Shown in pieces: positions 9,747 through 38,169 of a stretch of 49,002 nucleotides of DNA. Below the pieces are notes generated by a model. It was given only the letters and a program-made list of their open reading frames with translations, was not told where the DNA came from and made no database searches. The first letter of the stretch is position 1. Each line of letters starts with the position of its first letter. The stretch is from Actinomycetota bacterium (GTDB lineage: Bacteria > Actinomycetota > Actinomycetes > S36-B12 > UBA5976). Location of the stretch: NCBI GenBank assembly GCA_016870575.1, contig VGBH01000009.1, forward strand, positions 1-49,002, read 5' to 3'. The position numbers and the translations under genes were made by a program.

Positions 9747-9819
9747 GGGCCCTTAGCTCAGCTGGCAGAGCAACGGACTTTTAATCCGTGGGTCGTCGGT
9801 TCGATCCCGACAGGGCCCA
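9747..9819 (+). tRNA. tRNA-Lys (TTT anticodon)
   Basis: Acceptor arms GGGCCCT (9747-9753) and AGGGCCC (9812-9818) pair perfectly, followed by discriminator A. The anticodon stem ACGGA/TCCGT encloses loop CTTTTAA, giving anticodon TTT. The T-arm GTCGGTTCGATCCCGAC is standard. CCA is not encoded. It lies alone in the gap after lhgO. Confidence 0.95.
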
Positions 9820-9907
9820 CTTTTTTGGAAATTATTGTTATTTATCTTTGATTCTTTTTATCGACATTGCTTACCTAAGGCAATACCCTATGGTACTGGG
9901 GGTAGCA

Positions 9908-12322
9908 ATGAACGACTTGAGTGGGATTAAAGATATTCATCGCAGCGCGATTGGAATTTCTGAACAAGAACGAAAAATCCTGGAAAAAATAGAAGAGCGC
10001 GTGCTTTGGCTTTCTACTCGAATGATTGATTATGCAAATCGAGATCGAGAAAACCTCGATGGTTTGAAAGTAGGCGGACACCAAGCTTCGAGTGCATCTA
10101 TGGTTTCAATTATGACTGCACTTTATTTTAATTACTTAACCGTAGAAGACCGAGTGAGTGTAAAGCCACACGCATCTCCTGTATTTCATTCAATTCAATA
10201 TTTACTAGGGAATCTTGATCAGAAATATTTAACTCAACTTCGAATGCTCGGCGGATTGCAAAGTTATCCATCCAGGACGAAGGACCCAGAAATTGTCGAC
10301 TTTTCTACAGGTTCTGTAGGACTCGGGGCTGTTGCACCTTTGTTTGCTGCAACAACTAGGAGATACGTTGATTGCCATTTTGGTGAGCGACCACATTCAC
10401 GATTTATTGCAATTATTGGTGATGCAGAGCTAGATGAAGGAAATATCTGGGAGGCATTAGCAGATCAGGTAAATGATGGATTAGGCAATGTTATGTGGGT
10501 TGTTGATTTCAACCGCCAATCATTAGATCGAGTCATTCCCGGTATCAGAATCGCCCAATGGCGAGCACAGTTTGAGGCGGCTGGCTGGCATGTTCGTGAA
10601 CTTAAATATGGTTCTAAGCTAGAGCAAGTATTTAGTCAATCAGGAAGTGAATCATTTAAAAAGTGGTTTGATGATATTCCTAATGAACAATATCAATCGC
10701 TTTTTGGATTAACACCTGCTGAAGCAAGGGTTAGATTTCTAGAAGGTGCACCTATTGATGCTGCAAACTTCTTATTGCAGTTCAATGATGATGAGTTGTT
10801 TGAAATTATTACCGACCTTGGTGGGCACAATTTAACTTCACTAGTAAAGGCATTTGAAGATTGCGATGAAGTTACTGATAGACCTAGTGTGGTGTTCGCA
10901 TACACCATAAAGGGATGGCGTTTGCCTATTGCTGGAGATCCACGAAATCATTCCGCACAGATATCAGCTACCCAAATCGAGGAACTCAGAGCGCGAATAG
11001 GGCTAACCAAGGAAAACGAATGGGCAGGTTTTGAACCAGGCAGCCCAGAAGATGCACTCGTTCGAGCCCGCGGTGTTGCTCTGACAAGGAAGTTGACTTC
11101 TAATTCAATAAATATCAACCTTCCGATTTCAACTGGAGCGGCAGGTAGCGGTAAGACTTCTACACAGGAAATTTTTGGTAGAGCTTTGACTGAGTTAAGT
11201 AGAGATGAAAGTATTCGGCCATATCTAGTTACTGTTGCCCCAGATGTGGCTACGTCAACAAATCTTGGCGGCTTCATTAATAGAACAGGTGTTTTTCATC
11301 CTGAGCAAAGAAGACGTTGGAATGAAAACCCAATTTTGAAATGGGCTGAAGGTCCTACTGGTCAGCATATTGAACTTGGTATTAGCGAGATGAATCTATT
11401 CAGTTTATTAGGTCAACTTGGCGTAGCAAATGATTTACATAATCAGCCGTTGATTCCAATTGGAACAGTTTACGATCCATTTGTACTTCGGGGTCTTGAT
11501 GCTTTTATTTACAGCGTTTATTCTGGTGCAAAATTTATTCTTTCGGGAACGCCTTCTGGTATAACTCTGGCACCAGAAGGTGGTGCGCATCAATCTACAA
11601 TTACCCCATCGGTTGGAATTGAGTTGCCTGGTGTGGTGCTGATTGAACCTGCTTACGGTCAAGCCTTGGATTGGCTATTTTGTGATGCCGTTGCGCACGT
11701 TGCGGGAAGCAAAATTGACACTACTCCAGATCTGCGCCCAAGTGAGTTGGCCTTTTATTTCAGATTAACTACTAGAGCGATAGATCAAACACCGTTTATA
11801 GCCGCCAGGGAAAGACTTGGTGAAGCAACTTTACGTTCTCAAGTATTAGCAGGTTCTTATCGTTTGGTGGATGGTCGATTAGCATTGACAAAAGTCAGCG
11901 AAACTAATCCACCAGTAGTGCATTTAGTTGGATGCGGTGCAGTTATGCCAGAGGTACTACTTGCAGCGCAGGAACTTGCAAATGAAGGTGTGGTAGCTCA
12001 CGTTGTAGATGTGACATCCCCTGGCCGGTTGTTTGGTAGTTGGCAGCGCACCCTGAAGCAAGGAATTCGAACTGCTAGTACACCATCTTTTCCAGGAGTG
12101 CTACGACCAATCTTCTCCGAGCGGGCACCGATTGTTTCAATTCATGATGGTTCGTCTCATGCACTTGCTTGGCTCGGATCAGTTTTAGGCTCACCGCAAG
12201 TTGCGATGGGTGTGGACAGTTTTGGGCAATCTGGAAATATTCCTGATCTTTACAAAACCCATGATCTTGATCCAGGTTCAATTGTAAATGGAGCACTTGC
12301 TGCTCTTAGTCTGAATAATTAA
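9908..12322 (+). CDS. AceE/transketolase-family thiamine diphosphate enzyme
   Basis: An 804-residue single-chain protein laid out like homodimeric pyruvate dehydrogenase E1 (AceE): GGHQASSAS, VKPHASPVFHSIQYLLG, GGLQSYPS, then a ThDP-binding stretch GDAELDEGNIWEA ... DFNRQSLD, and pyrimidine-binding and C-terminal transketolase domains. It is shorter than typical AceE (about 890-930). The third residue of the usual GDG ThDP motif is Ala. The frame runs back into the tRNA, so the ATG at 9908 with GGGGG just upstream is chosen. Function could be oxidation of pyruvate or another 2-oxo acid, or a transketolase-like reaction; no lipoyl partner is adjacent. Confidence 0.75.
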   Translation: MNDLSGIKDIHRSAIGISEQERKILEKIEERVLWLSTRMIDYANRDRENLDGLKVGGHQASSASMVSIMTALYFNYLTVEDRVSVKPHASPVFHSIQYLLGNLDQKYLTQLRMLGGLQSYPSRTKDPEIVDFSTGSVGLGAVAPLFAATTRRYVDCHFGERPHSRFIAIIGDAELDEGNIWEALADQVNDGLGNVMWVVDFNRQSLDRVIPGIRIAQWRAQFEAAGWHVRELKYGSKLEQVFSQSGSESFKKWFDDIPNEQYQSLFGLTPAEARVRFLEGAPIDAANFLLQFNDDELFEIITDLGGHNLTSLVKAFEDCDEVTDRPSVVFAYTIKGWRLPIAGDPRNHSAQISATQIEELRARIGLTKENEWAGFEPGSPEDALVRARGVALTRKLTSNSININLPISTGAAGSGKTSTQEIFGRALTELSRDESIRPYLVTVAPDVATSTNLGGFINRTGVFHPEQRRRWNENPILKWAEGPTGQHIELGISEMNLFSLLGQLGVANDLHNQPLIPIGTVYDPFVLRGLDAFIYSVYSGAKFILSGTPSGITLAPEGGAHQSTITPSVGIELPGVVLIEPAYGQALDWLFCDAVAHVAGSKIDTTPDLRPSELAFYFRLTTRAIDQTPFIAARERLGEATLRSQVLAGSYRLVDGRLALTKVSETNPPVVHLVGCGAVMPEVLLAAQELANEGVVAHVVDVTSPGRLFGSWQRTLKQGIRTASTPSFPGVLRPIFSERAPIVSIHDGSSHALAWLGSVLGSPQVAMGVDSFGQSGNIPDLYKTHDLDPGSIVNGALAALSLNN

Positions 12323-27364: not shown

Positions 27365-27850
27365 ATGTTCAAAGTCGGCGAAACAGTCGTTTATCCACAC
27401 CACGGGGCTGCAACTATTGAGGCCATTGAGAAGCGGGTAATCAAGGGTGAGGAGCGCGAGTACCTGGTTCTTCGGGTGGCTCAGGGCGACCTAACTGTCC
27501 GAGTCCCAGCCGATAACGTTGACTTAGTTGGTGTGCGCGATGTGGTAAACGCCGAAGGCCTAGAGCGGGTTTTCAACGTACTGCGCCAACCGTATATAGA
27601 AGAGCCAACAAACTGGTCTCGTCGCTATAAAGCTAATTTAGAAAAACTGGCTTCTGGCGATGTAATTAAGGTTTCTGAAGTGGTTCGTGACTTGTGGTGC
27701 CGAGATCAAGATCGAGGGCTTAGTGCTGGTGAAAAAAGAATGCTAGTTAAAGCAATTCAAATCTTGCGCAGCGAAATCGCTCTTGCAGAACAATCACCAG
27801 AAGAAGATGCGGAAGCTCGCATCTTGGCCGTGCTTGAAGAGACTAAATAG
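27365..27850 (+). CDS. carD: CarD-family RNA polymerase-binding regulator
   Basis: A 161-residue CarD protein. The N-terminal RNAP-interaction domain ([24 protein letters not shown]) is followed by the DNA-binding helical domain ([28 protein letters not shown]). It stabilises open complexes, notably at rRNA promoters. GGGGAG lies before the ATG, and a TAGAAT at 27332-27337 may be its -10. It heads the conserved carD-ispD-ispF-cysS-rlmB order of actinobacteria. Confidence 0.95.
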
Positions 27851-27856
27851 TCAATT

Positions 27857-28510
27857 GTGACAAAGCGCGAGCTAATCTCGCAACCAGTGGTTGTGATTTG
27901 GGTTTCAGACAACAATGCATTTTTACCACTTGGCAAATCTTCAGTATTGGCAACAGCGGCAAATCGTGCTCGCACAGCAAAATGCTCACCACAAGTGGTA
28001 GTAGCAATTAAAAAAGAACTTCAAGCTGAGTATGAAGCAATGGATGCAAAACGCAAAACAAATTACCCAATTCACTTTTTAGCAAATGTTTCGGAAACGA
28101 AGAATCTGGTTGCACCTGCAACGCAAGTATTGTTTATTCATGATGCATGTCGACCATTAACTTCAATTACTACTTTTCAAGCAGCGCTGGAAGCCGTTTT
28201 GGAAGGAAATGGTGCGGCCAGACCTGCGCACTTGGTTGTTGATACATTAAAACAAATCAACCAAGAAAGATTAGTTACTGCAACTATTGACCGAAATAGT
28301 GTGCAGGCATTAACTTCACCTGAATGCTACTGGGCACCAAGTATCAGCGATGAAAAACCGACAGATGGTTGGAGTTTTAAATTAATTGCAGGCGAAACTC
28401 AAACGCTAATTCATGGCGACTTGGAATCAATTCGAGTTCGACGTGCTGAAGATGTTGTGTTAGTTGAATCGTTCCTTGAGTGGGAGCGGCTTAATCATTC
28501 TTCGTCTTGA
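27857..28510 (+). CDS. Degenerate IspD-like protein at the native ispD locus
   Basis: A 217-residue protein with IspD-like landmarks in order: FIHDACRPLTS (HDxARPL region), VVDTLKQIN (DTVK region), ALTSPECYW in place of TPQ-F, and ESIRVRRAEDVVLVESFL in place of the NIKVT-PEDL segment. The N-terminal CTP-binding loop LAAGxGxR...K is gone: the protein opens VVIWVSDNNAFLPLGK. It sits directly after carD, where actinobacteria carry ispD. It is probably inactive as a cytidylyltransferase, or has another role. GTG start; it overlaps the convergent zinc-ribbon gene by 16 bases. Confidence 0.7.
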   Translation: MTKRELISQPVVVIWVSDNNAFLPLGKSSVLATAANRARTAKCSPQVVVAIKKELQAEYEAMDAKRKTNYPIHFLANVSETKNLVAPATQVLFIHDACRPLTSITTFQAALEAVLEGNGAARPAHLVVDTLKQINQERLVTATIDRNSVQALTSPECYWAPSISDEKPTDGWSFKLIAGETQTLIHGDLESIRVRRAEDVVLVESFLEWERLNHSSS

Positions 28511-28830
28511 AGTTTTTCAACATTCTTGAGTTCTTTAGCTTCATCAATAAACTTTTTAGGCTGTCGTCTTAAGGCAGCGGGCAAGCCTTTCCAGAGATAA
28601 CTTGGCTCCATAATTAACCTACGCATTAAGCGATGAGGTTTAGTAGTTACTCGATCTTGAAGGTCTTTAATGTAAGTGCGGCGTAATTCCCGAGGCGTAT
28701 GTCGCATTATCGTGCCGCAAGATTTACATTTTGCACTGGCTAATAATCTTCCGGCATAGTGCAATTCGTGCAAGCCCTCTTTGCCACAAACACCACACCT
28801 AAGCACCACCTGTTGCTTACCGTTATCCAT
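28495..28830 (-). CDS. Small zinc-ribbon protein, unknown function
   Basis: A 111-residue soluble protein with a CGVC pair near residue 12 and a CKSC pair near 35, the spacing of a zinc ribbon. The remainder is basic and helical (RRTYIKDLQDRV, RRLIMEP) with a lysine-rich tail. It is the last gene of the PTS/DRL/IspD operon and overlaps the ispD stop by eight bases. I do not recognise the family. It could be a nucleic-acid-binding or regulatory protein. Confidence 0.6.
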   Translation of the reverse strand: MDNGKQQVVLRCGVCGKEGLHELHYAGRLLASAKCKSCGTIMRHTPRELRRTYIKDLQDRVTTKPHRLMRRLIMEPSYLWKGLPAALRRQPKKFIDEAKELKNVEKLQDEE

Positions 28831-29542
28831 GGCTACTCCTAGTAGGTAAATTAAAGTGGTGTGATGCCAAGATGTGCTCGGCTAAAATCAAATCTTGGGC
28901 ATATGTGACTTTAATATTCTGTGCGCTGCCAGGAACGCACTTGATTTGCACCTCAGGGGCAAACTTCTCCATACACATTGCAGTATCTGACCCTTGAAAT
29001 CCCTGCATTTCTGCTTCGCGGTAACTGGCTAAAAGTGACTGTGCTCGAAATACCTGTGGCGTTTGAACTCTGATTATCTCGTCAGATTGCGCGGTGTGGC
29101 CAGTTAACACAGATGTTGGTAACGATGGGATTGCGCCGCCATATTCTTCAGCGGATCTGACTATCTCACTAATTAGTGCTGGCGATGTTAAAGGTCTTGC
29201 GCCATCGTGAATCAAAACTAAATCACACTCGCCAGATTCAATTGCTGGGGCTAAATACTCAAGGGCATGGCGTTCAGAATCATGTCTAGTAATTCCGCCA
29301 TCTACTAAATCAACTGGTGCATCAACATAAGATTTCAAAACTGCTCTTGCTTTTTCGTGCTCACTGGGATGAACAACTAAAACATATCGATAAAACAATT
29401 TAGTATTGATTAACCATTTGAAACTCCAGGTAAGCAACTCTTGCCCGCCAAGTGGCAACCAAACTTTGTTTATCCCAGCACCAATTCGATTACCAGCACC
29501 AGCAGCAAGAATTACTGCGATGCGTTTAGGAGAATTAGACAC
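28823..29542 (-). CDS. ispD: 2-C-methyl-D-erythritol 4-phosphate cytidylyltransferase (complete IspD)
   Basis: A 239-residue IspD. The CTP-binding loop LAAGAGNRIGAGINKVWL keeps both the catalytic Arg and Lys, followed by IHDGARPLTS, VQTPQVFRA and NIKVTYAQDLILAE. It joins CTP and methylerythritol 4-phosphate (MEP) to give CDP-methylerythritol. It starts at GTG just after the DRL stop, in an operon with a polyol PTS. The substrate could alternatively be a related polyol phosphate (ribitol 5-phosphate cytidylyltransferases are close relatives). The native-locus paralog at 27857 lacks the CTP loop. Confidence 0.82.
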   Translation of the reverse strand: MSNSPKRIAVILAAGAGNRIGAGINKVWLPLGGQELLTWSFKWLINTKLFYRYVLVVHPSEHEKARAVLKSYVDAPVDLVDGGITRHDSERHALEYLAPAIESGECDLVLIHDGARPLTSPALISEIVRSAEEYGGAIPSLPTSVLTGHTAQSDEIIRVQTPQVFRAQSLLASYREAEMQGFQGSDTAMCMEKFAPEVQIKCVPGSAQNIKVTYAQDLILAEHILASHHFNLPTRSSHG

Positions 29543-29543
29543 A

Positions 29544-30821
29544 TCACAAACCTAGCGCATCTTGCTGTTTGCGCAGTTGGTAGATGGTCTGATTGGTATC
29601 TAATTCCACATCGTCATAGCTGACATATGCACCTGTTGGAATATCTCGTTTTGCTGTTGCGCCTTGCAAAATTCCAATGGGCACTAAATTATCTTTCAAG
29701 GCATCTGCAACTTTATCGGTAACTCCACGTGCGGAAAAACCGCCGATGCCATCGAACTTTTCTCCTGATTTATGCACTTTCTTGGTAGCCGCTATAACTT
29801 CGGTCATTCGAGTACCACTTACTAAGGAAGTTCGACCATCAACCAAAATCTTGGCAATTGTTAGCGGAGCTTCAACACTTGCCAAATGGTGTGGTCGATA
29901 AATTGTGAAATAGGGACCCTTGCCCATTGAGAGATAACTCATCTCTTCTGCTACATAAGGCGAATCTGTTCGAACTACCACAAAAACGCCAGGAGCAACA
30001 TCGCCTGTGCAGTATTCAACAACACCTGGCTCATCTAGCACTCCGCCATCAGCTTTTAATGCAAAAACATCTTGCAGCGTTTTAACTGTTGCAGCAGGAC
30101 CAATCATTCCGCGTTGAGTCAACTTTAATCCAGTTGCATTTGCGAGAGCTGCCATCTCAATCATGGTCTTAGAGCCATCAGTAAAACTCGCTAGCATTTT
30201 TGGATTCATATGCTTGGCTTTAGCGCGTTCAGACACGGTATCTGGATTTGAAAGCGGTTCAAAAGGATTGTTTTTACCTTTGCCTGCACAAACAACTTCA
30301 AAAGATAAATCCAGCGCAAAATCAACTAACTCTTTAGCCTCTACTGGCTCATCGCCGTGGCAGACCGAATAGATCACACCATTATTTTCAGCAGTTTTTC
30401 GCAGGATTGGGCCAATTGTGACATCGCACTCAACATTCAAAACTGCTACGTGCTTTTTGTTTACTAATGAATTGTAGGCAACTTTCGCACCTATCTCAGG
30501 CACACCGGTTGCTTCAACTACAACATCAACATTTAGGTGTGCAATTAACTCAGCGTTTGTGGTGCCAGCAGGCTTACCACTTTCAATTGCTTTATTTAAA
30601 GTATCAACATCATCTGAAATCACCGCTTCGCCTAATCTCAGATCTGCATAAGCTTGTTGAATTCGAGCGGGGTCTATATCTGCAATTACCGCAACTGAGA
30701 TTCCCATTCGATGTGTCTGGGAGGCAAATCCTCGACCCATCTGACCTGCACCAACAAGAGCAATTCGAAATTCTCGACCTTGCGCTTTCGCTAAGCGTTT
30801 AATCTCATCGCGATAAAGCAT
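29544..30821 (-). CDS. DRL-like NAD(P)-dependent oxidoreductase with SAF domain
   Basis: A 425-residue protein. The N-terminal Rossmann fold has IALVGAGQMGRGFASQ, followed by a homoserine-dehydrogenase-like catalytic part (VVEATGVPEIGAKVA, CHGDEPVEAKELVDF, ASFTDGSKTMIEMAALANATG), and ends in an SAF domain (ATAKRDIPTGAYVSYDDVEL). This architecture is that of the DRL family, whose Brucella member is a DXP reductoisomerase unrelated to Dxr; other members may act on other polyol phosphates. It is between the PTS genes and ispD. An AAGGAA within the end of srlB supplies its ribosome-binding site. Confidence 0.72.
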   Translation of the reverse strand: MLYRDEIKRLAKAQGREFRIALVGAGQMGRGFASQTHRMGISVAVIADIDPARIQQAYADLRLGEAVISDDVDTLNKAIESGKPAGTTNAELIAHLNVDVVVEATGVPEIGAKVAYNSLVNKKHVAVLNVECDVTIGPILRKTAENNGVIYSVCHGDEPVEAKELVDFALDLSFEVVCAGKGKNNPFEPLSNPDTVSERAKAKHMNPKMLASFTDGSKTMIEMAALANATGLKLTQRGMIGPAATVKTLQDVFALKADGGVLDEPGVVEYCTGDVAPGVFVVVRTDSPYVAEEMSYLSMGKGPYFTIYRPHHLASVEAPLTIAKILVDGRTSLVSGTRMTEVIAATKKVHKSGEKFDGIGGFSARGVTDKVADALKDNLVPIGILQGATAKRDIPTGAYVSYDDVELDTNQTIYQLRKQQDALGL

Positions 30822-30824
30822 TAA

Positions 30825-31193
30825 TTAATTCCTTTTTATTGTGAGTTTGGAACCAACAATTACCGTTGGCAGCGCTACTTGAGCAATACATACATCGCCT
30901 GGTAGCTCTGCCTGTGTTCGTCCATTCGCCTTCAAATTCAGATGACCTAACTGCATTAAGTTCTCACTTGCTACTGGTCCCACTGCAAGCACTGTGAATT
31001 CATTGCCATCAATGTTTACCACATCTCCAGCAAGTAATTCGCCGCTTTGATGTTCAACTTTGTGCAGCACACAAAAACTATGCAGTTCCTCAGGCGCATT
31101 TTCGCCGAAGAAAACCAACATACCTTCTGCAACGAAACTAGGAACTAATTCACCAATTGAGGTAACTGTTGTTTGATAAAGCAGTTCACTCAT
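30825..31193 (-). CDS. srlB: PTS glucitol/sorbitol-type IIA component
   Basis: A 122-residue cytoplasmic phosphocarrier related to SrlB: LYQTTVTSIGELVPSF, FFGENAPEELHSFCVLHKVEH, VTVLAVGPVASENLMQLGH-type core. His44 aligns with the phosphorylated histidine region of SrlB. It receives phosphate from HPr and passes it to IIB. It follows the IIB gene by two bases and precedes the DRL-like gene. Confidence 0.88.
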   Translation of the reverse strand: MSELLYQTTVTSIGELVPSFVAEGMLVFFGENAPEELHSFCVLHKVEHQSGELLAGDVVNIDGNEFTVLAVGPVASENLMQLGHLNLKANGRTQAELPGDVCIAQVALPTVIVGSKLTIKRN

Positions 31194-31195
31194 TC

Positions 31196-31570
31196 CTAGT
31201 TAACCGGCGTCACATTTTCTGGTTTAACGCCAGATACGAATAGATCTTCGGTTATGAACATTGCAAGTGGCCCAGCTGGTGAAGTTGCATGGATATCAAC
31301 AGTTAATACTTTTTTCATTGGATAAACACCAACACGTGCTGTGCCACCGCAGTCAATTACCGCAACTGCAATCTTGTCAAATGGTGCACTGCTCTTAAAA
31401 CCATCAAAAACTTCACCACCTGTTAGGTCAGCAATATGTTGAGCTACCGGATGAATACCACCACCTGTTACGCAATAAATTAGTGGTCGATCAGCAGTTG
31501 GTTTCACAATCAACGGACCGCCCCAACCACCTCTACCCTTTTCAATCTTGACTGCTTTGTAATCAGCCAT
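31196..31570 (-). CDS. srlE: PTS glucitol/sorbitol-type IIB domain protein (separate gene)
   Basis: A 124-residue protein equal to the N-terminal IIB part of SrlE: VKIEKGRGGWGGPL, then IAVAVIDCGGTARVGVYP with Cys74 the likely phosphorylation site, ending ITEDLFVSGVKPENV. In E. coli this is fused to the membrane domain; here it is free and follows the IIC2 gene. The ATG at 31570 has AAAGGA six bases upstream and is preferred to the GTG at 31573. Confidence 0.85.
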   Translation of the reverse strand: MADYKAVKIEKGRGGWGGPLIVKPTADRPLIYCVTGGGIHPVAQHIADLTGGEVFDGFKSSAPFDKIAVAVIDCGGTARVGVYPMKKVLTVDIHATSPAGPLAMFITEDLFVSGVKPENVTPVN

Positions 31571-31611
31571 CACAAGTCCTTTCAGTTGAACTTAGGGGAT
31601 AACTCTAGATA

Positions 31612-31661: not shown

Positions 31662-32207
31662 CTAGTTCGAGCTGTAAAGACCGAAGCTAGCGAAATAAGC
31701 AATCACTACTGAAAGTGGACCAGTGATCAAGCGTGAGAATAGAACTGCTGGAACACCAACTTCCACTGTCTCTGGCTCTGCTTCACCAAGGGCAAGACCT
31801 ACTGGAATGAAGTCGCAACCTACCTGTGGGTTGATAGCGAATAGAGCTGGAAGTGAATACTGGGCTGGAATAGTGCCGCGACCGATTTCAACACCTAGCA
31901 AGGTGCCGACGATCTGAGCAATAACAGCGCCTGGGCCCAAAAGTGGGCTAAGGATTGGAATTGCACAAACAACTGAAACAATCAACAAACCAACAAGGCT
32001 TGATGCAAGTCCCTTAATGCCGTTTGCAATCCAGTCACCAATACCGGTGGTTAGTACCAAACCGATAATGAATGAGATAAACGCCATGAATGGAATGATG
32101 TTGCGAATAGTGGTATCAACAGTCTCACGACCTGCTTGATACAACGTACCAACAACGCCACCAACGCTACGGCCAACCTTTACTAATATTGCATTAATTC
32201 CGCTCAT
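31662..32207 (-). CDS. srlE: PTS glucitol/sorbitol-type membrane domain (SrlE C-terminal part, IIC2)
   Basis: A 181-residue membrane protein matching the C-terminal half of SrlE: VGTLYQAGRETVDTTIRNIIPFMAFIS at the start, GPGAVIAQIVGTLLGVEIG in the middle, then VGCDFIPVGLALGEAEPETV and VGVPAVLFSRLITGPLSV. It forms the sugar channel with SrlA. Its ATG shares a base with the srlA stop (TAATG). The IIB domain normally joined to it is encoded separately downstream. Confidence 0.87.
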   Translation of the reverse strand: MSGINAILVKVGRSVGGVVGTLYQAGRETVDTTIRNIIPFMAFISFIIGLVLTTGIGDWIANGIKGLASSLVGLLIVSVVCAIPILSPLLGPGAVIAQIVGTLLGVEIGRGTIPAQYSLPALFAINPQVGCDFIPVGLALGEAEPETVEVGVPAVLFSRLITGPLSVVIAYFASFGLYSSN

Positions 32208-32797
32208 TAGGCAGCCGCTCCTTTACGTGCCATCATTCTGGCTGTGATTAATTCAGTCACAATTCCGCGAATGAAGATAACTACAAGTCCAACTAGTAGA
32301 TAGCGAAGAGCCAAGTCACCAAGGCCATAGCCGAGGGTTTGGATACCTGCAGCAATACCTAGGTAAACGAAAAGCTCACCTGGGTTTGCGTGCGGAAAGA
32401 TACCTGTAATTGGGTGAACATAAGACACAGCAGAGTCATAAAAAGCTGGCTTATATTTTTCTGGTAGGAAGCGTCCCATTGTGTAAGCCATTGGGTTGGT
32501 CAGGAAGAACACTGCCAACAAAGGCAACACCATGTAACGAACTGGATACCACTGAAGTCCTGGCTGTGAAGCCTTGACACCTAGGTTTTCAATTTTCTCT
32601 GGTCCAATTAGTCGAACCAAAGCGTTGACAGCGGTAAGCAACACAATCAGTGTTGGCAGAATTCCGCCCATCAAGCTAAGTAGTACTGCGCCGCCTTCTT
32701 GGAATATTGAAATGAAATATTCCGCTCCATCGGCTAATGCGCCCCAAGCACCAGTTGGATCACCAACTGTGGTTTCGAGCCCAATCATTAGTTTCAT
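32207..32797 (-). CDS. srlA: PTS glucitol/sorbitol-type IIC component
   Basis: A 196-residue membrane protein of the SrlA family with several hydrophobic segments and the family motif NPMAYTMGRFLPEKYKPAFYDS, followed by ITGIFPHANPGELFVYLG. It carries the polyol across the membrane. GGAGGG sits before the ATG. A 72-base gap separates it from gutM. The transported polyol is unknown. Confidence 0.9.
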   Translation of the reverse strand: MKLMIGLETTVGDPTGAWGALADGAEYFISIFQEGGAVLLSLMGGILPTLIVLLTAVNALVRLIGPEKIENLGVKASQPGLQWYPVRYMVLPLLAVFFLTNPMAYTMGRFLPEKYKPAFYDSAVSYVHPITGIFPHANPGELFVYLGIAAGIQTLGYGLGDLALRYLLVGLVVIFIRGIVTELITARMMARKGAAA

Positions 32798-32869: not shown

Positions 32870-33277
32870 TTACTCCGTGTGACCAGTGTCACTTTCGTTC
32901 AATTTTTCCTCTTTGAGCAGCACTTCAGCCGCCATTTTGGCTGCTGCTTGTTCCTTTTTTCTCAAAGTATCCATCCCTTGCCCTGCGGCTAGGTCTACTA
33001 GACGCCTACCCACGAGTTCGGGGAAATCTACTGGTGAGGCAAAAACTGTCCAGCCAACCAACAGCTTGGCTCCCACCACCACGCCATCTCGCTCGGCTAA
33101 GGCAACAAATGCCCGACCGCCCCGATATCGAAAACCACCCAATCCAACTGCGGTTCGGCCGAGCGCTCTAATCTCTCGCAGACTTTTACTAAAGCGCATT
33201 GACTGTTTAGCAGCAAAATAAAGTTGAAACACCCACATTGCTGCAATTAGCAGCAAGATATAAATCAATACTTCCAT
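32870..33277 (-). CDS. gutM: GutM-type regulator, membrane-anchored
   Basis: A 135-residue protein with an N-terminal hydrophobic helix (VLIYILLLIAAMWVFQLYF) and a small cytoplasmic domain (RYRGGRAFVALAERDGVVVGAKLLVG). This is the form of GutM, a co-activator linked to glucitol PTS operons. A charged tail follows. It directly follows the SorC-type regulator without a gap. How it acts here is not visible. Confidence 0.8.
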   Translation of the reverse strand: MEVLIYILLLIAAMWVFQLYFAAKQSMRFSKSLREIRALGRTAVGLGGFRYRGGRAFVALAERDGVVVGAKLLVGWTVFASPVDFPELVGRRLVDLAAGQGMDTLRKKEQAAAKMAAEVLLKEEKLNESDTGHTE

Positions 33278-34243
33278 TTAACGCCCCAGTCTTTGATCTT
33301 CAACCAATTGGAGTAACGCTAGTGCACCTTTGGCAGTAGTAATCAATTCTGTAATGTGTTTTCCATTTATCGCACCTAGCATCCCTCGTGCTTTATCAGC
33401 TCCAGCAGCAAGGCCAATTACTTGCTTTACATTTCTTAACTGAGATAGTCGAACTGCAATTATTCGGTCATCAATTGCACTATCGACTATGTTGCCACTT
33501 AAATCGAAGAATCTGGCAGCCATATCACCGGCAAGATTCGAATAAAATGTTGGGTCATTTTGTGGATTAATTCCCGCTGCTCGAAGAAGAGAATTTGTTG
33601 ATGTTGAGCCGCGAGCACCAATCCCAACAATTGCTAAGTCTGCATTTTCTGCTGATTTAAGCACTTCATTAATACTTGGTTCTGCCATAAATGCTTCGCG
33701 CGCTTCACTTGTTTGCACAATTGCTGGAGCATGCATAGTTGCAAACTCAGCATGAAACTTTGTTGCCAAAATACGAATTAGGTTTTCACCAGTTATTCCA
33801 GATGGAATTTCAGTCATCCCACCCATTAACGGAATAAATCTGATGTCTGGTCGATGATTTTCACCAATCACACTTACCATCGCTTGCAGAGATCTTCCCC
33901 AAGAAATAGCAATTGTTGCATTAGGTTTTAGATTTTCTTCTAATGCAGCTGCAGCTAAGGTGCCAACGGCTATAGTTTCATCGCCACCTTGCGGCACGCG
34001 AGCAACTCGCACAGTTCGAAGTGGCAACACTTCCATAACTCGCTGTTCTAACCGAGCATCGCGCAGTGTATTTTCAATAATTCGAATCTCAACAATTCCT
34101 TGCGCACGAGCATCGCTAAGCATGCGCGAGACATTTGACCTTGAAGTGAGCAATTCTTTTGCAATTTGTTCTTGCGATTTGTTTTCTTCGTAATAAAGCC
34201 GAGCAGCGCGAACTAAAAGTGCTTTATCGCGCAGCATTGCCAT
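33278..34243 (-). CDS. SorC/DeoR-type sugar-binding transcriptional regulator
   Basis: A 321-residue regulator. The N-terminal helix-turn-helix (KSQEQIAKELLTSRSNVSRMLSDARAQG) is followed by a sugar-phosphate-binding domain (ISWGRSLQAM, FIPLMGG, AIVGIGA, VIGLAAGADKA). It probably senses the phosphorylated substrate of this PTS. The start at ATG 34243 overlaps the E2 stop (ATGA). A candidate binding site is the TGTGAA/TTCACA repeat before the operon. Confidence 0.87.
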   Translation of the reverse strand: MAMLRDKALLVRAARLYYEENKSQEQIAKELLTSRSNVSRMLSDARAQGIVEIRIIENTLRDARLEQRVMEVLPLRTVRVARVPQGGDETIAVGTLAAAALEENLKPNATIAISWGRSLQAMVSVIGENHRPDIRFIPLMGGMTEIPSGITGENLIRILATKFHAEFATMHAPAIVQTSEAREAFMAEPSINEVLKSAENADLAIVGIGARGSTSTNSLLRAAGINPQNDPTFYSNLAGDMAARFFDLSGNIVDSAIDDRIIAVRLSQLRNVKQVIGLAAGADKARGMLGAINGKHITELITTAKGALALLQLVEDQRLGR

Positions 34244-35322
34244 CAAATCACCTCAGCAAGAGCGTGTTCAAACTGCACTAATGCCTTTGCAGCATCACCA
34301 GGATCTCCCACCCGATGATCCATCGTAAGGCCAACATTCATTTTTAAGTTCCCTTTTATTTTGCGAATTTTGCCCACTGAAAGTGCAGTTGCTTGGGGAG
34401 GAATAAGCATTACATTGGCTTGGAGAACGTCATAATCACCAAGATCGGTAAGGGAAGTGGTAGCTCCAGATAAGTTATCTAGTGAAATTTTACCAATTGC
34501 TGCATTTTCAATAACTTGGAAAACCTCTAACTCCCAATTTTCGAGCGCATAACTTGGCACGCTAATAACTGGAGTAACAAATCCATAAGGCGCTTCCATT
34601 GCGACAGCAACTTTAACTTCAGTTAATTCTTGAGCAGCGTCATTTTGCCAAGTAACATGCAGATGTGGCATCAAAGATAACGTTCGCTGCCAAGCACGAA
34701 GTAAGGTCGCACATCTTTTTGTTGCTGTTTTGCCGAATCTATTTTCAAGTGGTACTTCCCGCACAACTGTAAATTGCGGTATTTGCGCTGAAGCCATAGT
34801 GACTTTGGCAATCTGTGCTCGGGCTTTTGCTCTTCGTATCGGATCTATTCTGGTAACTAAATCAGTAACTTGAATTACTCTACTTGGACTTTTTGGTTTA
34901 ATTGTTGTTAAGTCAATTCCTTGTGCTCGTGCTTTTACCCGCGCACCTGGCATTGCTAAAACTGAATTAGATGGCGTTAACTCCGCAACTTCTGCAGCTG
35001 GCTCTTCTGCTTTTGTTTGCTCGATTTCTCTTGGTTCACTTGGGGCAGCTGATGTAAACAGACCTGCAAGTAAATCTTCACCCTCTGTTTCCAAAACAAT
35101 TATTGGATCTCCCACATTAATCATTTGATTTGGCTGAGCACATAACTCAATTACTTTGCCTGACATTTCAGATTCAACTTCCATATCAATCTTGTCAGTT
35201 GCAACGTGCGCAACAACATCTCCGGCCTTTACCTCTTGGCCTATGGAAACTGTGTAGGAAATAAGTTCACCTTCAGTCATTGTCATTGACATTTTCGGCA
35301 TCACTATTGGTGAATTGGGCAT
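34243..35322 (-). CDS. 2-oxoacid/acetoin dehydrogenase E2 (lipoyl acyltransferase)
   Basis: A 359-residue E2. An N-terminal lipoyl domain carries Lys44 in ATDKIDMEVES; a short E3-binding domain (MPGARVKARAQGIDLTTI) and a catalytic domain ending DHRVGDPGDAA follow. The catalytic His and Asp are kept, but the Gly of the usual DHRxxDG is Pro. It would pass the acyl group from E1 to CoA. No E3 gene is nearby, so a shared lipoamide dehydrogenase is needed. TAATG overlap with E1 beta. Confidence 0.85.
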   Translation of the reverse strand: MPNSPIVMPKMSMTMTEGELISYTVSIGQEVKAGDVVAHVATDKIDMEVESEMSGKVIELCAQPNQMINVGDPIIVLETEGEDLLAGLFTSAAPSEPREIEQTKAEEPAAEVAELTPSNSVLAMPGARVKARAQGIDLTTIKPKSPSRVIQVTDLVTRIDPIRRAKARAQIAKVTMASAQIPQFTVVREVPLENRFGKTATKRCATLLRAWQRTLSLMPHLHVTWQNDAAQELTEVKVAVAMEAPYGFVTPVISVPSYALENWELEVFQVIENAAIGKISLDNLSGATTSLTDLGDYDVLQANVMLIPPQATALSVGKIRKIKGNLKMNVGLTMDHRVGDPGDAAKALVQFEHALAEVI

Positions 35323-36311
35323 TATGGCTCCCGCATTAACGCAACTGCGCCAGCAATAATGTCTTCAATTTGCGGCACTGCTGCTTTCTCCAATTGAGGT
35401 GCGTATGGAATTGGAATATCCATTCCACAAATTCGCTTAACTGGTGCCAGCAAGGAATACAGTGCTGGACCTTCTGCAATTCTGGCGGCAACTTCTGCCA
35501 TAAAACCTACATGTTTTGGTGCTTCTTGCACCAACATCACTCGTCCAGATGCTGCTATTGCATCGTTTATTAGAGACATGTCAAGTGGTGAAAGGGTTCG
35601 AGGATCAATAATTGTTGCTTTAATTCCTTGTTCCTTTAATTGATCAGCAGCTGCAATTGATCGCGAAACCATTACCCCAGTTGCCACAATTACTAAATCT
35701 TTTCCTTCGCGAACTAAGTCAGCAACTCCAATTGGCGTGCGGAATGGCTCTTCTGGTACGGGACCTGACGTTTTGTAAAGCAGTTTGTGTTCTAAAACAA
35801 TAACTGGATTGGGATCATCAATCGCTGCAAGTAACAATCCTTTAGCATCTCGCGGATTGCTTGGTAGCACGACTTTTAGGCCAGGTATATGCGCAAACCA
35901 AGTTTCCAAACTCTGCGAATGCTGCGCTGCAGCTCCGGTGCCTGAGCCACTTGGCGCTCGAAGAACCATAGGAACAGACAATTCGCCACCTAACATAAAA
36001 TGAATTTTTGCAGCTTGATTAACGATTTGATCCATTGCTTGTGAAGTGAAGTCAGAGAATTGAATCTCCACAATTGGTCGCATACCAACTAATGCCGCCC
36101 CTACTGCGGCACCAACAATTCCTAACTCAGAAATAGGAGTATCCCTAATTCGCTCAGCTCCAAATCGATGATAAAGATCTCCAGAAACACCAAATGCTCC
36201 ACCGTATATACCAATATCTTCACCCAACATAAACACATTTGAATCAGCTTCCATTGCCTGTGCAATAGCCTCGCGCACGGCCTCGGAATATGTGATTACA
36301 CGATTAGCCAT
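35322..36311 (-). CDS. 2-oxoacid/acetoin dehydrogenase E1 beta subunit
   Basis: A 329-residue beta subunit with the usual [36 protein letters not shown] start and the [25 protein letters not shown] and [27 protein letters not shown] segments. With the alpha subunit it forms a ThDP-dependent dehydrogenase. The frame extends to 36332, but ATG 36311 has GAGG six bases upstream. It overlaps the alpha-subunit stop by eight bases. Confidence 0.88.
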
Positions 36312-37320
36312 TATAAACCTCTCGATAAACACTGCTTAGCAATTCCGCTGGATCTGAATCAGGTGCTGCCGATGCATCCTTTATCGCTTCTCGAATAGTT
36401 TCTCGGACTTGATTTGCTAGTGCATCAACATCAGTTTGAGTTACTAATTGGTTTTGCAGAATAATTTCTTGAAAACGAATGATTGGATCTTTTGCTTTCC
36501 ATTGATCAATTTCCTCTTTAGTTCGGTAAAGATTTTTATCGCTCTTGGAATGACCTTTCCACCGGTAGGTTTCACATTCAATTAGGGTTGGCCCTTTTCC
36601 ACTTCGTGCTCGCTGTACCGCAGCAACTGCTGCTTGATAAACCTCATTAACATCATTTCCATCAACTGTTACGCCAGCAATCCCATAGGCCGATGCACGA
36701 TCTGAAACTTTGTCGACCCGCATACTCAATTCAGTTGAATTTGACATTCCATACTTATTGTTCTCACACACAAAAATAACTGGCAAATCCCAGATCGCAC
36801 CTAAATTAAGTGCTTCATGAAAGGCACCTTCGTTAGTTGCACCATCACCAAAGAAGCTAACAACTACGTTGTTTTCATTTCGCATTTTTTGGGCAAGCGC
36901 TGCACCAACGGCAATAGGAATTCCACCTGCAACGATGCCATTTGCACCAAGGTTACGAGTTTTAGTATCAGCAATATGCATACTGCCACCTCGTCCACGG
37001 CAGTATCCAGTTTGCTTTGCTAATAACTCAGCCATCATTCGAGTTAAATCGGCACCTTTAGCAATGCAGTGGCCATGGCCTCGATGTGTGCTTGTGATGT
37101 AATCAGTTGTTTTTAGAGCCACACATATTCCCGTTGCACTCGCTTCTTGTCCAATCGATAAGTGCATTGTGCCGTGCATTAATCCGCGAGCAAATAATCC
37201 ATCCACTGCTTCCTCAAACGACCTGATTGTGAGCATCGATTCAAGTGCGGATAGTGCAGCTGACCGGTCTAGCTCAAGTGAGCCTGATTCAGGTGAGATA
37301 AGTGGGGTAATTGAAACCAT
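36304..37320 (-). CDS. 2-oxoacid/acetoin dehydrogenase E1 alpha subunit
   Basis: A 338-residue alpha subunit. [31 protein letters not shown] and ThDP motif [15 protein letters not shown] ... ENNKYG resemble AcoA of the acetoin dehydrogenase complex more than pyruvate E1 alpha. It would decarboxylate a 2-oxo acid or cleave an acyloin. The ATG at 37320 follows AGGAG closely; an ATG at 37335 is also possible. First gene of the PTS/DRL/IspD operon. Confidence 0.85.
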
Positions 37321-37336
37321 TTTGCTCCTGCACATA

Positions 37337-37704: not shown

Positions 37705-38169
37705 GTGCAAACAGGAATTTCATTAGACGTCCATCCACTTGATCCTTCACGACCGCTGTGGCTGGCTGGAATTCTTTGGCCAAACCATCCAGGCCTCAGT
37801 GGTCATTCTGATGGAGATGTTGCCGCACATGTAGTTGCTGAATCTTTACTAAGTGCAACTGGACTTGGTGATTTAGGAAGTATTTTTGGTGTTGCAGATG
37901 CAGCCAATCACAACATAACTGGAGTTGAGATATTGCAGCAGGTTGCAATTTTAGTAGCAGAAGCTGGATTTGAGATTGAAAATGTTGCAGTACAAATAAT
38001 TTGCCAAACACCTAAAATTTCAGATCGAAGAATTGAAGCGCAAACTGCATTAACTAATGCTCTTGGTGCACAAGTTAATTTAACTGCAACCAGCACTGAT
38101 GGATTAGGTTTTACTGGTCGCGGTGAAGGTATTGCAGCAATTGCTTCTGCGTTAGTGAGTAAGAAGTAA
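37705..38169 (+). CDS. ispF: 2-C-methyl-D-erythritol 2,4-cyclodiphosphate synthase
   Basis: A 154-residue IspF. Zinc ligands are in the DVH motif (Asp8, His10) and GLSGHSDGDV (His42 region); TATSTDGLGFTGRGEGIAAIA is the C-terminal signature. It cyclises CDP-methylerythritol 2-phosphate in the MEP isoprenoid pathway. GTG start, nine bases after ptsH. In other actinobacteria it directly follows ispD, from which it is separated here by the PTS operon. Confidence 0.93.
   Translation: MQTGISLDVHPLDPSRPLWLAGILWPNHPGLSGHSDGDVAAHVVAESLLSATGLGDLGSIFGVADAANHNITGVEILQQVAILVAEAGFEIENVAVQIICQTPKISDRRIEAQTALTNALGAQVNLTATSTDGLGFTGRGEGIAAIASALVSKK

Follow-up and report, generated by a model that had tools for sequence, protein, structure and literature searches.

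Comparative analysis suggests that a freshwater actinobacterium and several unrelated actinobacteria build one IspD from two subunits that each look broken. The DNA analysed here (the window) is a stretch of 49,002 nucleotides, contig VGBH01000009.1 of assembly GCA_016870575.1, in which the two genes concerned are dIspD, located directly after carD at the native place of ispD, and IspD2, located on the opposite strand in an inserted operon, hereafter the island. In the ordinary IspD homodimer the CTP loop comes from one subunit and the MEP-contacting beta-arm from the other, and in the E. coli enzyme the arm reportedly reaches across from the other subunit. We consider it rather probable that dIspD and IspD2 together form a single heterodimeric MEP cytidylyltransferase, to whose split active site each contributes a part. 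The proposal is built on the reciprocal loss and retention of active-site residues, the co-occurrence of the genes, purifying selection and the IspD fold of both proteins, from which we infer that the two proteins pair physically and that activity needs both. The features are collected in table 1.

Table 1. Features of the window around the two IspD genes and the island
Feature	Positions	Strand	Remarks
carD	27365..27850	+	marker of the native carD-ispD-ispF-cysS locus
dIspD, IspD-fold protein without CTP loop, beta-arm intact	27857..28510	+	
dIspD beta-arm (VVDTLKQINQERLVTATIDRN)	28238..28300	+	alignment of 18 sequences; modelled as strands 131-134 and 140-144
ZnR, small zinc-ribbon-like protein, four Cys	28495..28830	-	beside IspD2 in most loci
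IspD2, CTP-site IspD without beta-arm	28823..29542	-	
Expected place of the beta-arm in IspD2 (SLPTSVLTGHTAQSDEIIR)	29066..29125	-	DTxK and DR missing, about 8 residues shorter
CTP loop of IspD2 (LAAGAGNRIGAGINK)	29465..29509	-	alignment
DRL, DXR-II-type oxidoreductase with SAF domain	29544..30821	-	PF21135, 214.9 bits; Brucella DXR-II 3upy, E=2.6e-93; tree
Glucitol/sorbitol-type PTS IIA	30825..31193	-	PF03829
Glucitol-type PTS IIB (N part of EIIBC)	31196..31573	-	PF03612
Glucitol-type PTS EIIBC, C part	31662..32207	-	PF07663
Glucitol-type PTS IIC	32207..32797	-	PF03608; NF049923 above cut-off
GutM	32870..33277	-	PF06923
Sugar-binding SorC/DeoR-type regulator	33278..34246	-	PF04198
E2, E1-beta and E1-alpha of a PDH/acetoin-dehydrogenase-like complex	34243..37335	-	beside DRL in most loci
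ispF	37705..38169	+	flanks the insertion on its far side (native row carD-ispD-ispF-cysS)

The original prediction had recognised an IspD relative after carD, and in family and fold this holds: dIspD exceeds the Pfam IspD gathering cut-off (48.6 bits against 27), and its AF2 single-chain model (18 sequences, pLDDT 89.8, pTM 0.85) is matched best in the PDB by crystal structures of IspD, with TM values of 0.70-0.75. The Pfam match, however, begins only at profile position 19, and the TIGR00453 score, 55.4 bits, lies below the equivalog cut-off of 181.3. As predicted, LAAGxGxR...K is lacking, the segment with the CTP loop being deleted, and the frame of 217 codons has zero internal stops. There is no upstream space for the loop, because the frame opens right after the carD stop, which also excludes a missed start or a frameshift that would give it back. 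The arm reads VVDTLKQIN-QERLVTATIDRN (its E. coli counterpart has 22 letters) and forms two strands in the model. Only five positions are invariant among the 18 aligned dIspDs, which share 17-66% identity with the window protein: K132, T143, D145 and R146 in the arm and P155 in a TPQ-like motif that adjoins it. Equivalents of D106 and R109 are frequently retained in the alignment to E. coli IspD.

The native gene had also been suspected of decaying. It is open over 202-222 aa in the 18 aligned genomes at identities down to 17%, and dN/dS between neighbours is 0.06-0.23 for dIspD and 0.03-0.12 for IspD2, with some dS values near saturation and pairs with undefined dS omitted. Given these ratios and open frames, dIspD is under purifying selection and is not decaying; a pseudogene is ruled out, and conservation of the open frame in many genomes exceeds what chance would leave.

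IspD2 had been described as a complete IspD 312 bp away on the other strand. The distance (28511-28822) and the strand are right, but the protein is not complete: the beta-arm motif DTxK...DR is missing, and TIGR00453 gives 155.6 bits, again below the equivalog cut-off. The CTP loop is present and the Pfam IspD score is 153 bits; G16, K27, R85, S88, D106 and R109 are found in 43/43 IspD2 sequences and R20 in 42/43, which covers the CTP loop and the catalytic pocket. The AF2 single-chain model (pLDDT 89.8) has IspD as its best PDB match, and the place of the arm is modelled with lower confidence and without a hairpin. By alignment, the island protein is thus an incomplete IspD, which has kept the CTP site and lost the arm residues. 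The small ZnR frame overlaps both dIspD and IspD2 and matches no Pfam family significantly; it is retained beside IspD2 in most loci, those of Mycolicibacterium included, and is a possible third component.

The two losses are complementary. Scored against E. coli IspD for G16, G18, R20, K27, R85 and S88 on the CTP side and T140, K142 and R157 in the arm, ordinary IspD has 6/6 and 3/3 residues in 57/57 sequences. IspD2 has 4-6 of the six CTP-site residues and 0-1 of the three arm residues (n=42, omitting one Fusibacter row that is an ordinary IspD by these residues). In dIspD (n=24) the CTP side is reduced to 0-3 of 6, with the K27 equivalent in 0/24, and the arm is full in 23 sequences and has 2/3 in one, the Lys and Arg being present in 24/24 and the Thr/Ser in 23/24. 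By these alignments dIspD keeps exactly the arm residues that IspD2 has lost, and the pair jointly holds all the active-site residues checked in known IspD. The residue equivalent to E. coli T140 sits in the substrate site, and in the dimeric Francisella IspD the substitution T141E abolishes activity and T141D removes 75% of it (PMC3111433).

Among 119 relatives dIspD is present only in G000, G002, G006, G012 and G018, which are exactly the genomes with DRL; with 5/5 and zero exceptions (Fisher 9e-9, uncorrected for kinship) chance co-occurrence is rejected. Nearly all the remaining relatives have an ordinary IspD, and other members of G018's genus (g6) have a normal IspD and no DRL. A PF01128 search of the window's genome returned no intact IspD, its third match being GlmU-shaped (N-terminal part of a 505-codon frame). 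The nearest named record, 'Candidatus Nanopelagicales bacterium' SFB_3D_50_1 (86% identity in DRL), marks the window as coming from a Nanopelagicales-type actinobacterium. dIspD also stands beside IspD2, mostly with ZnR between them, in acI-like genomes (L105-L118) and in Mycolicibacterium (L123, L124). In Williamsia, Prauserella, Amycolatopsis and Nitriliruptoraceae the island holds IspD2, an IspD that keeps the arm but not the loop is encoded elsewhere, and no intact IspD was detected; the loop-less gene lies immediately before ispF in Prauserella, Amycolatopsis and Nitriliruptor, and the row carD-dIspD-ispF-cysS is found in Prauserella (L213) and Amycolatopsis (L214). Loop-less IspDs were seen only in genomes with IspD2. 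Salinibacterium and Cryobacterium serve as a control, for they have an island without IspD2 and retain an intact IspD, which rejects the island itself, as opposed to IspD2, as the cause of the loop loss.

Other genomes depart from this pattern. Nocardia has the pair plus an intact IspD, so that the pair is not merely a housekeeping replacement. In Nonomuraea IspD2 was found and dIspD was not seen. Actinomarina has an arm-less IspD2 with the whole island, and carD directly adjoins ispF; neither 973 kb of one genome nor profile searches of two others yielded a dIspD, and three nucleotidyltransferase frames considered as a hidden dIspD belong to other Pfam families. G006 (L177:534-1241) and G017 (L175:2523-3218) encode extra IspD/TarI-like proteins, which have the CTP loop and Arg157 together with Ala at position 142.

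In the tree, IspD2 forms one clade (support 97), and the dIspDs fall into three groups among native actinobacterial IspDs (97), as far as a quick method with long branches can tell, one very long-branched Nitriliruptor row being misplaced. This placement points to a single origin of IspD2, which seems to have travelled afterwards, and to a loss of the CTP loop, possibly repeated, in native-type IspDs. The pair travels as a cassette in several lineages, and the designation of dIspD as the native-locus protein therefore fits the window but not every genome.

The rest of the island (DRL, PTS, GutM, regulator and E1/E2) lies between the two IspD genes and ispF. DRL falls inside the DXR-II clade (support 96/99), where the DXR-II proteins of Brucella, NGR234 (Sinorhizobium) and Listeria are interspersed, at about 43% identity. 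Brucella is not known to have DXR-I, and the window's genome lacks it. In alignment to 3upy, DRL keeps Thr229, Gly121 and Arg320, the DXR-II residues given in PMC3847144, and both the tree and Thr229 speak against DLO as an assignment. It differs from known DXR-II in Ile250 and Met351, where most have His250 and Val351, and in its place in an operon with a PTS and E1/E2. Like the sorbitol (glucitol) PTS, the island encodes IIA, IIB, IIBC, IIC and GutM, but EIIBC is split over two genes and the system is linked to MEP-pathway genes. The phosphate donor chain is represented by EI-sized genes in G000, G001, G002, G006 and G012 and by HPr adjoining the operon in other loci; a sorbitol-6-phosphate dehydrogenase was not seen in the operon.

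The same gene set surrounds DRL in Nocardia, Nonomuraea, Williamsia, Mycolicibacterium, Prauserella, Amycolatopsis, Streptomyces, Aquiluna, Salinibacterium, Cryobacterium, Actinomarina and Nitriliruptoraceae, and in Salinibacterium and Cryobacterium the island sits between ispDF and cysS. On a plasmid of S. meliloti Rm41 (L223:4974-11188) a DXR-II homologue is followed by E1-alpha, E1-beta, E2, lpdA and lipA, the same module without the PTS, accompanied by a SorC-type regulator and a sugar ABC transporter. On a plasmid of Ligilactobacillus salivarius (L220:8995-16566) the homologue is found with a sorbitol-type PTS, GutM, a regulator, fsa and tkt; the genus uses mevalonate. At 9788-12322 the window encodes a second TPP enzyme of uncertain substrate, an AceE-like E1 of 844 aa that scores 203 bits against an AceE cut-off of 860.

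How would the two proteins work together? In the proposed dimer IspD2 would give the CTP loop and the catalytic pocket and dIspD would give the arm, which would leave one working and one dead site; the subunit at the native place would have lost its CTP loop after IspD2 came with the DXR-II island. A dIspD homodimer would offer its arm no CTP site, which means that the arm must be retained for a partner or for packing, and dimer packing could be the sole function of its invariant residues. A precedent is the trypanosomatid deoxyhypusine synthase, which is activated 3000-fold by a dead paralog (PMC3663545). The idea that the old protein had taken a new role is right in outline, its likeliest role being that of second subunit of the same enzyme. 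The original reading, that the island IspD replaced a native copy now decaying, has on its side a native place without the CTP loop, an island protein with the loop and no other IspD in the genome, and the island does appear to supply the CTP-site function. The absence from IspD2 of the very arm residues conserved in dIspD makes simple replacement unlikely; the structure predictions and alignments that had been called for give both proteins the IspD fold with complementary active-site losses, and the dN/dS values, the frame open in every genome and the invariant arm leave decay very improbable.

The main evidence against a heterodimer is Actinomarina with IspD2 alone: either IspD2 may work alone there, or the partner is missing or unrecognisable, or the solution has changed. 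Nonomuraea, Nocardia with its intact IspD and the extra IspD/TarI-like protein of G006 weigh in the same direction. In another account, less than likely in our judgement and yet to be taken seriously, IspD2 has rebuilt its MEP pocket and suffices alone, and dIspD acts as a pseudoenzyme regulator, for instance by sensing MEP and binding to IspD2 or to some other partner. Actinomarina, which has no detectable dIspD, DXS or DXR-I and has IspH in 2/3 genomes, fits IspD2 working alone, and the frequent D106/R109 equivalents in dIspD fit a regulator; this account, however, gives no obvious reason for a strictly complementary residue pattern, nor for loop-less IspDs being found solely in genomes with IspD2. 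It is also conceivable, although improbable, that the pair activates another phosphorylated polyol imported by the PTS and that isoprenoid synthesis proceeds via a different enzyme. IspD-like proteins include ribitol-5-phosphate cytidylyltransferases (TarI matches were found), the pair is located in a PTS operon, and Nocardia has a normal IspD besides; against this, no intact IspD was detected in the window genome, Williamsia, Prauserella or Amycolatopsis, IspG and IspH are found in the window genome, and the arm motif retained by dIspD is the MEP-binding one.

DXR-I, which most relatives have, is absent in the island genomes of the Nanopelagicales-type group, and DRL is for that reason probably their DXR, so that the predicted substitution by island genes extends to DXR-I, replaced by DRL/DXR-II. 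DXS (PF13292, above 250 bits) is absent in G000, G001, G002, G006, G017, G133, G135, G136 and three Actinomarina genomes, and present in G012, G129 and 5/5 checked genomes that have DRL, IspD2 and dIspD without the PTS. The DXS-less list includes G153, G154 and G159, and the downstream MEP genes searched are mostly present. IspG is found in 7/7 family genomes checked and IspH in most genomes searched. The genomes are drafts, and a single absence may be an assembly gap; this is unlikely for 3/3 genomes in the window's genus and 3/3 of Actinomarina. Genomes G130, G132, G134, G137, G142 and G125, all except G125 acI-like with the island, encode DXS-like proteins of 585-603 aa in which the N-terminal domain match skips about 35 positions (roughly 194-229). 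For the DXS-less genomes a dependence on imported methylerythritol or deoxyxylulose is possible, as is a different source of DXP.

DXR-II interconverts MEP and DXP. The latter is, like acetoin, an acyloin, and acetoin is cleaved by E1/E2 complexes of this type. We tentatively read the island, with considerable doubt, as an operon for the import and breakdown of methylerythritol (or 1-deoxyxylulose), which would also feed isoprenoid synthesis in cells without DXS and DXR-I. The sorbitol-type PTS would make MEP, DXR-II would oxidise it to DXP, and the PDH-like E1/E2 would split DXP into acetyl-CoA and glyceraldehyde 3-phosphate; in the window's genus and Actinomarina, DXS and DXR-I would have been lost and isoprenoids would be made from imported methylerythritol via the two-subunit IspD. 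In Salmonella, according to Testa 2004 as cited in PMC3994034, methylerythritol is taken up through the sorbitol PTS, and a dxr mutant survives when it is supplied from outside. Terrimesophilobacter mesophilus (L162/G156) has the island at the carD...cysS place, and DXS, DXR-I, IspD and IspH were all not found there, which implies that the operon is useful without the MEP pathway; this case and those of Rm41 and L. salivarius are easiest to read as catabolic uses. Alternatively, cells without DXS could make DXP by E1, as a mutant E. coli AceE does (PMC3424233).

The window pair shares with known IspD (PF01128, TIGR00453; E. coli, B. subtilis 5ddt, M. tuberculosis 3q80) the fold, the overall sequence, the D106/R109 region and the place beside ispF; known IspD, however, is a homodimer of identical complete subunits, whereas each of these proteins misses one half-site. 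The nearest analogues, the prozyme systems of trypanosomatid deoxyhypusine synthase and AdoMetDC, combine an impaired paralog with a dead one into an active enzyme (PMC3663545, PMC5201418), but they are unrelated and eukaryotic, while the window pair is bacterial with reciprocal active-site losses. A literature search, covering few subscription journals and thus weak evidence of novelty, turned up neither a heterodimeric IspD nor the catabolism of methylerythritol.

IspD, a drug target, is regarded as an unvarying homodimer within an essential pathway ('evolutionarily rigid', PMC10663253). If the proposal is true, the divided-site heterodimer would be a new form of IspD and a small-scale example from nature of paralogs bound to each other by reciprocal loss, and annotation from either gene alone would mislead. 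The operon also bears on life without DXS, which 181 surveyed species lead (PMC10663253), and on the patchy distribution of DXR-II, the cause of which is a stated puzzle (PMC3847144, PMC13001223). If the methylerythritol reading is true, DXR-II would be catabolic by origin, and the free-living actinobacteria of the window's genus and Actinomarina would be isoprenoid-precursor auxotrophs.
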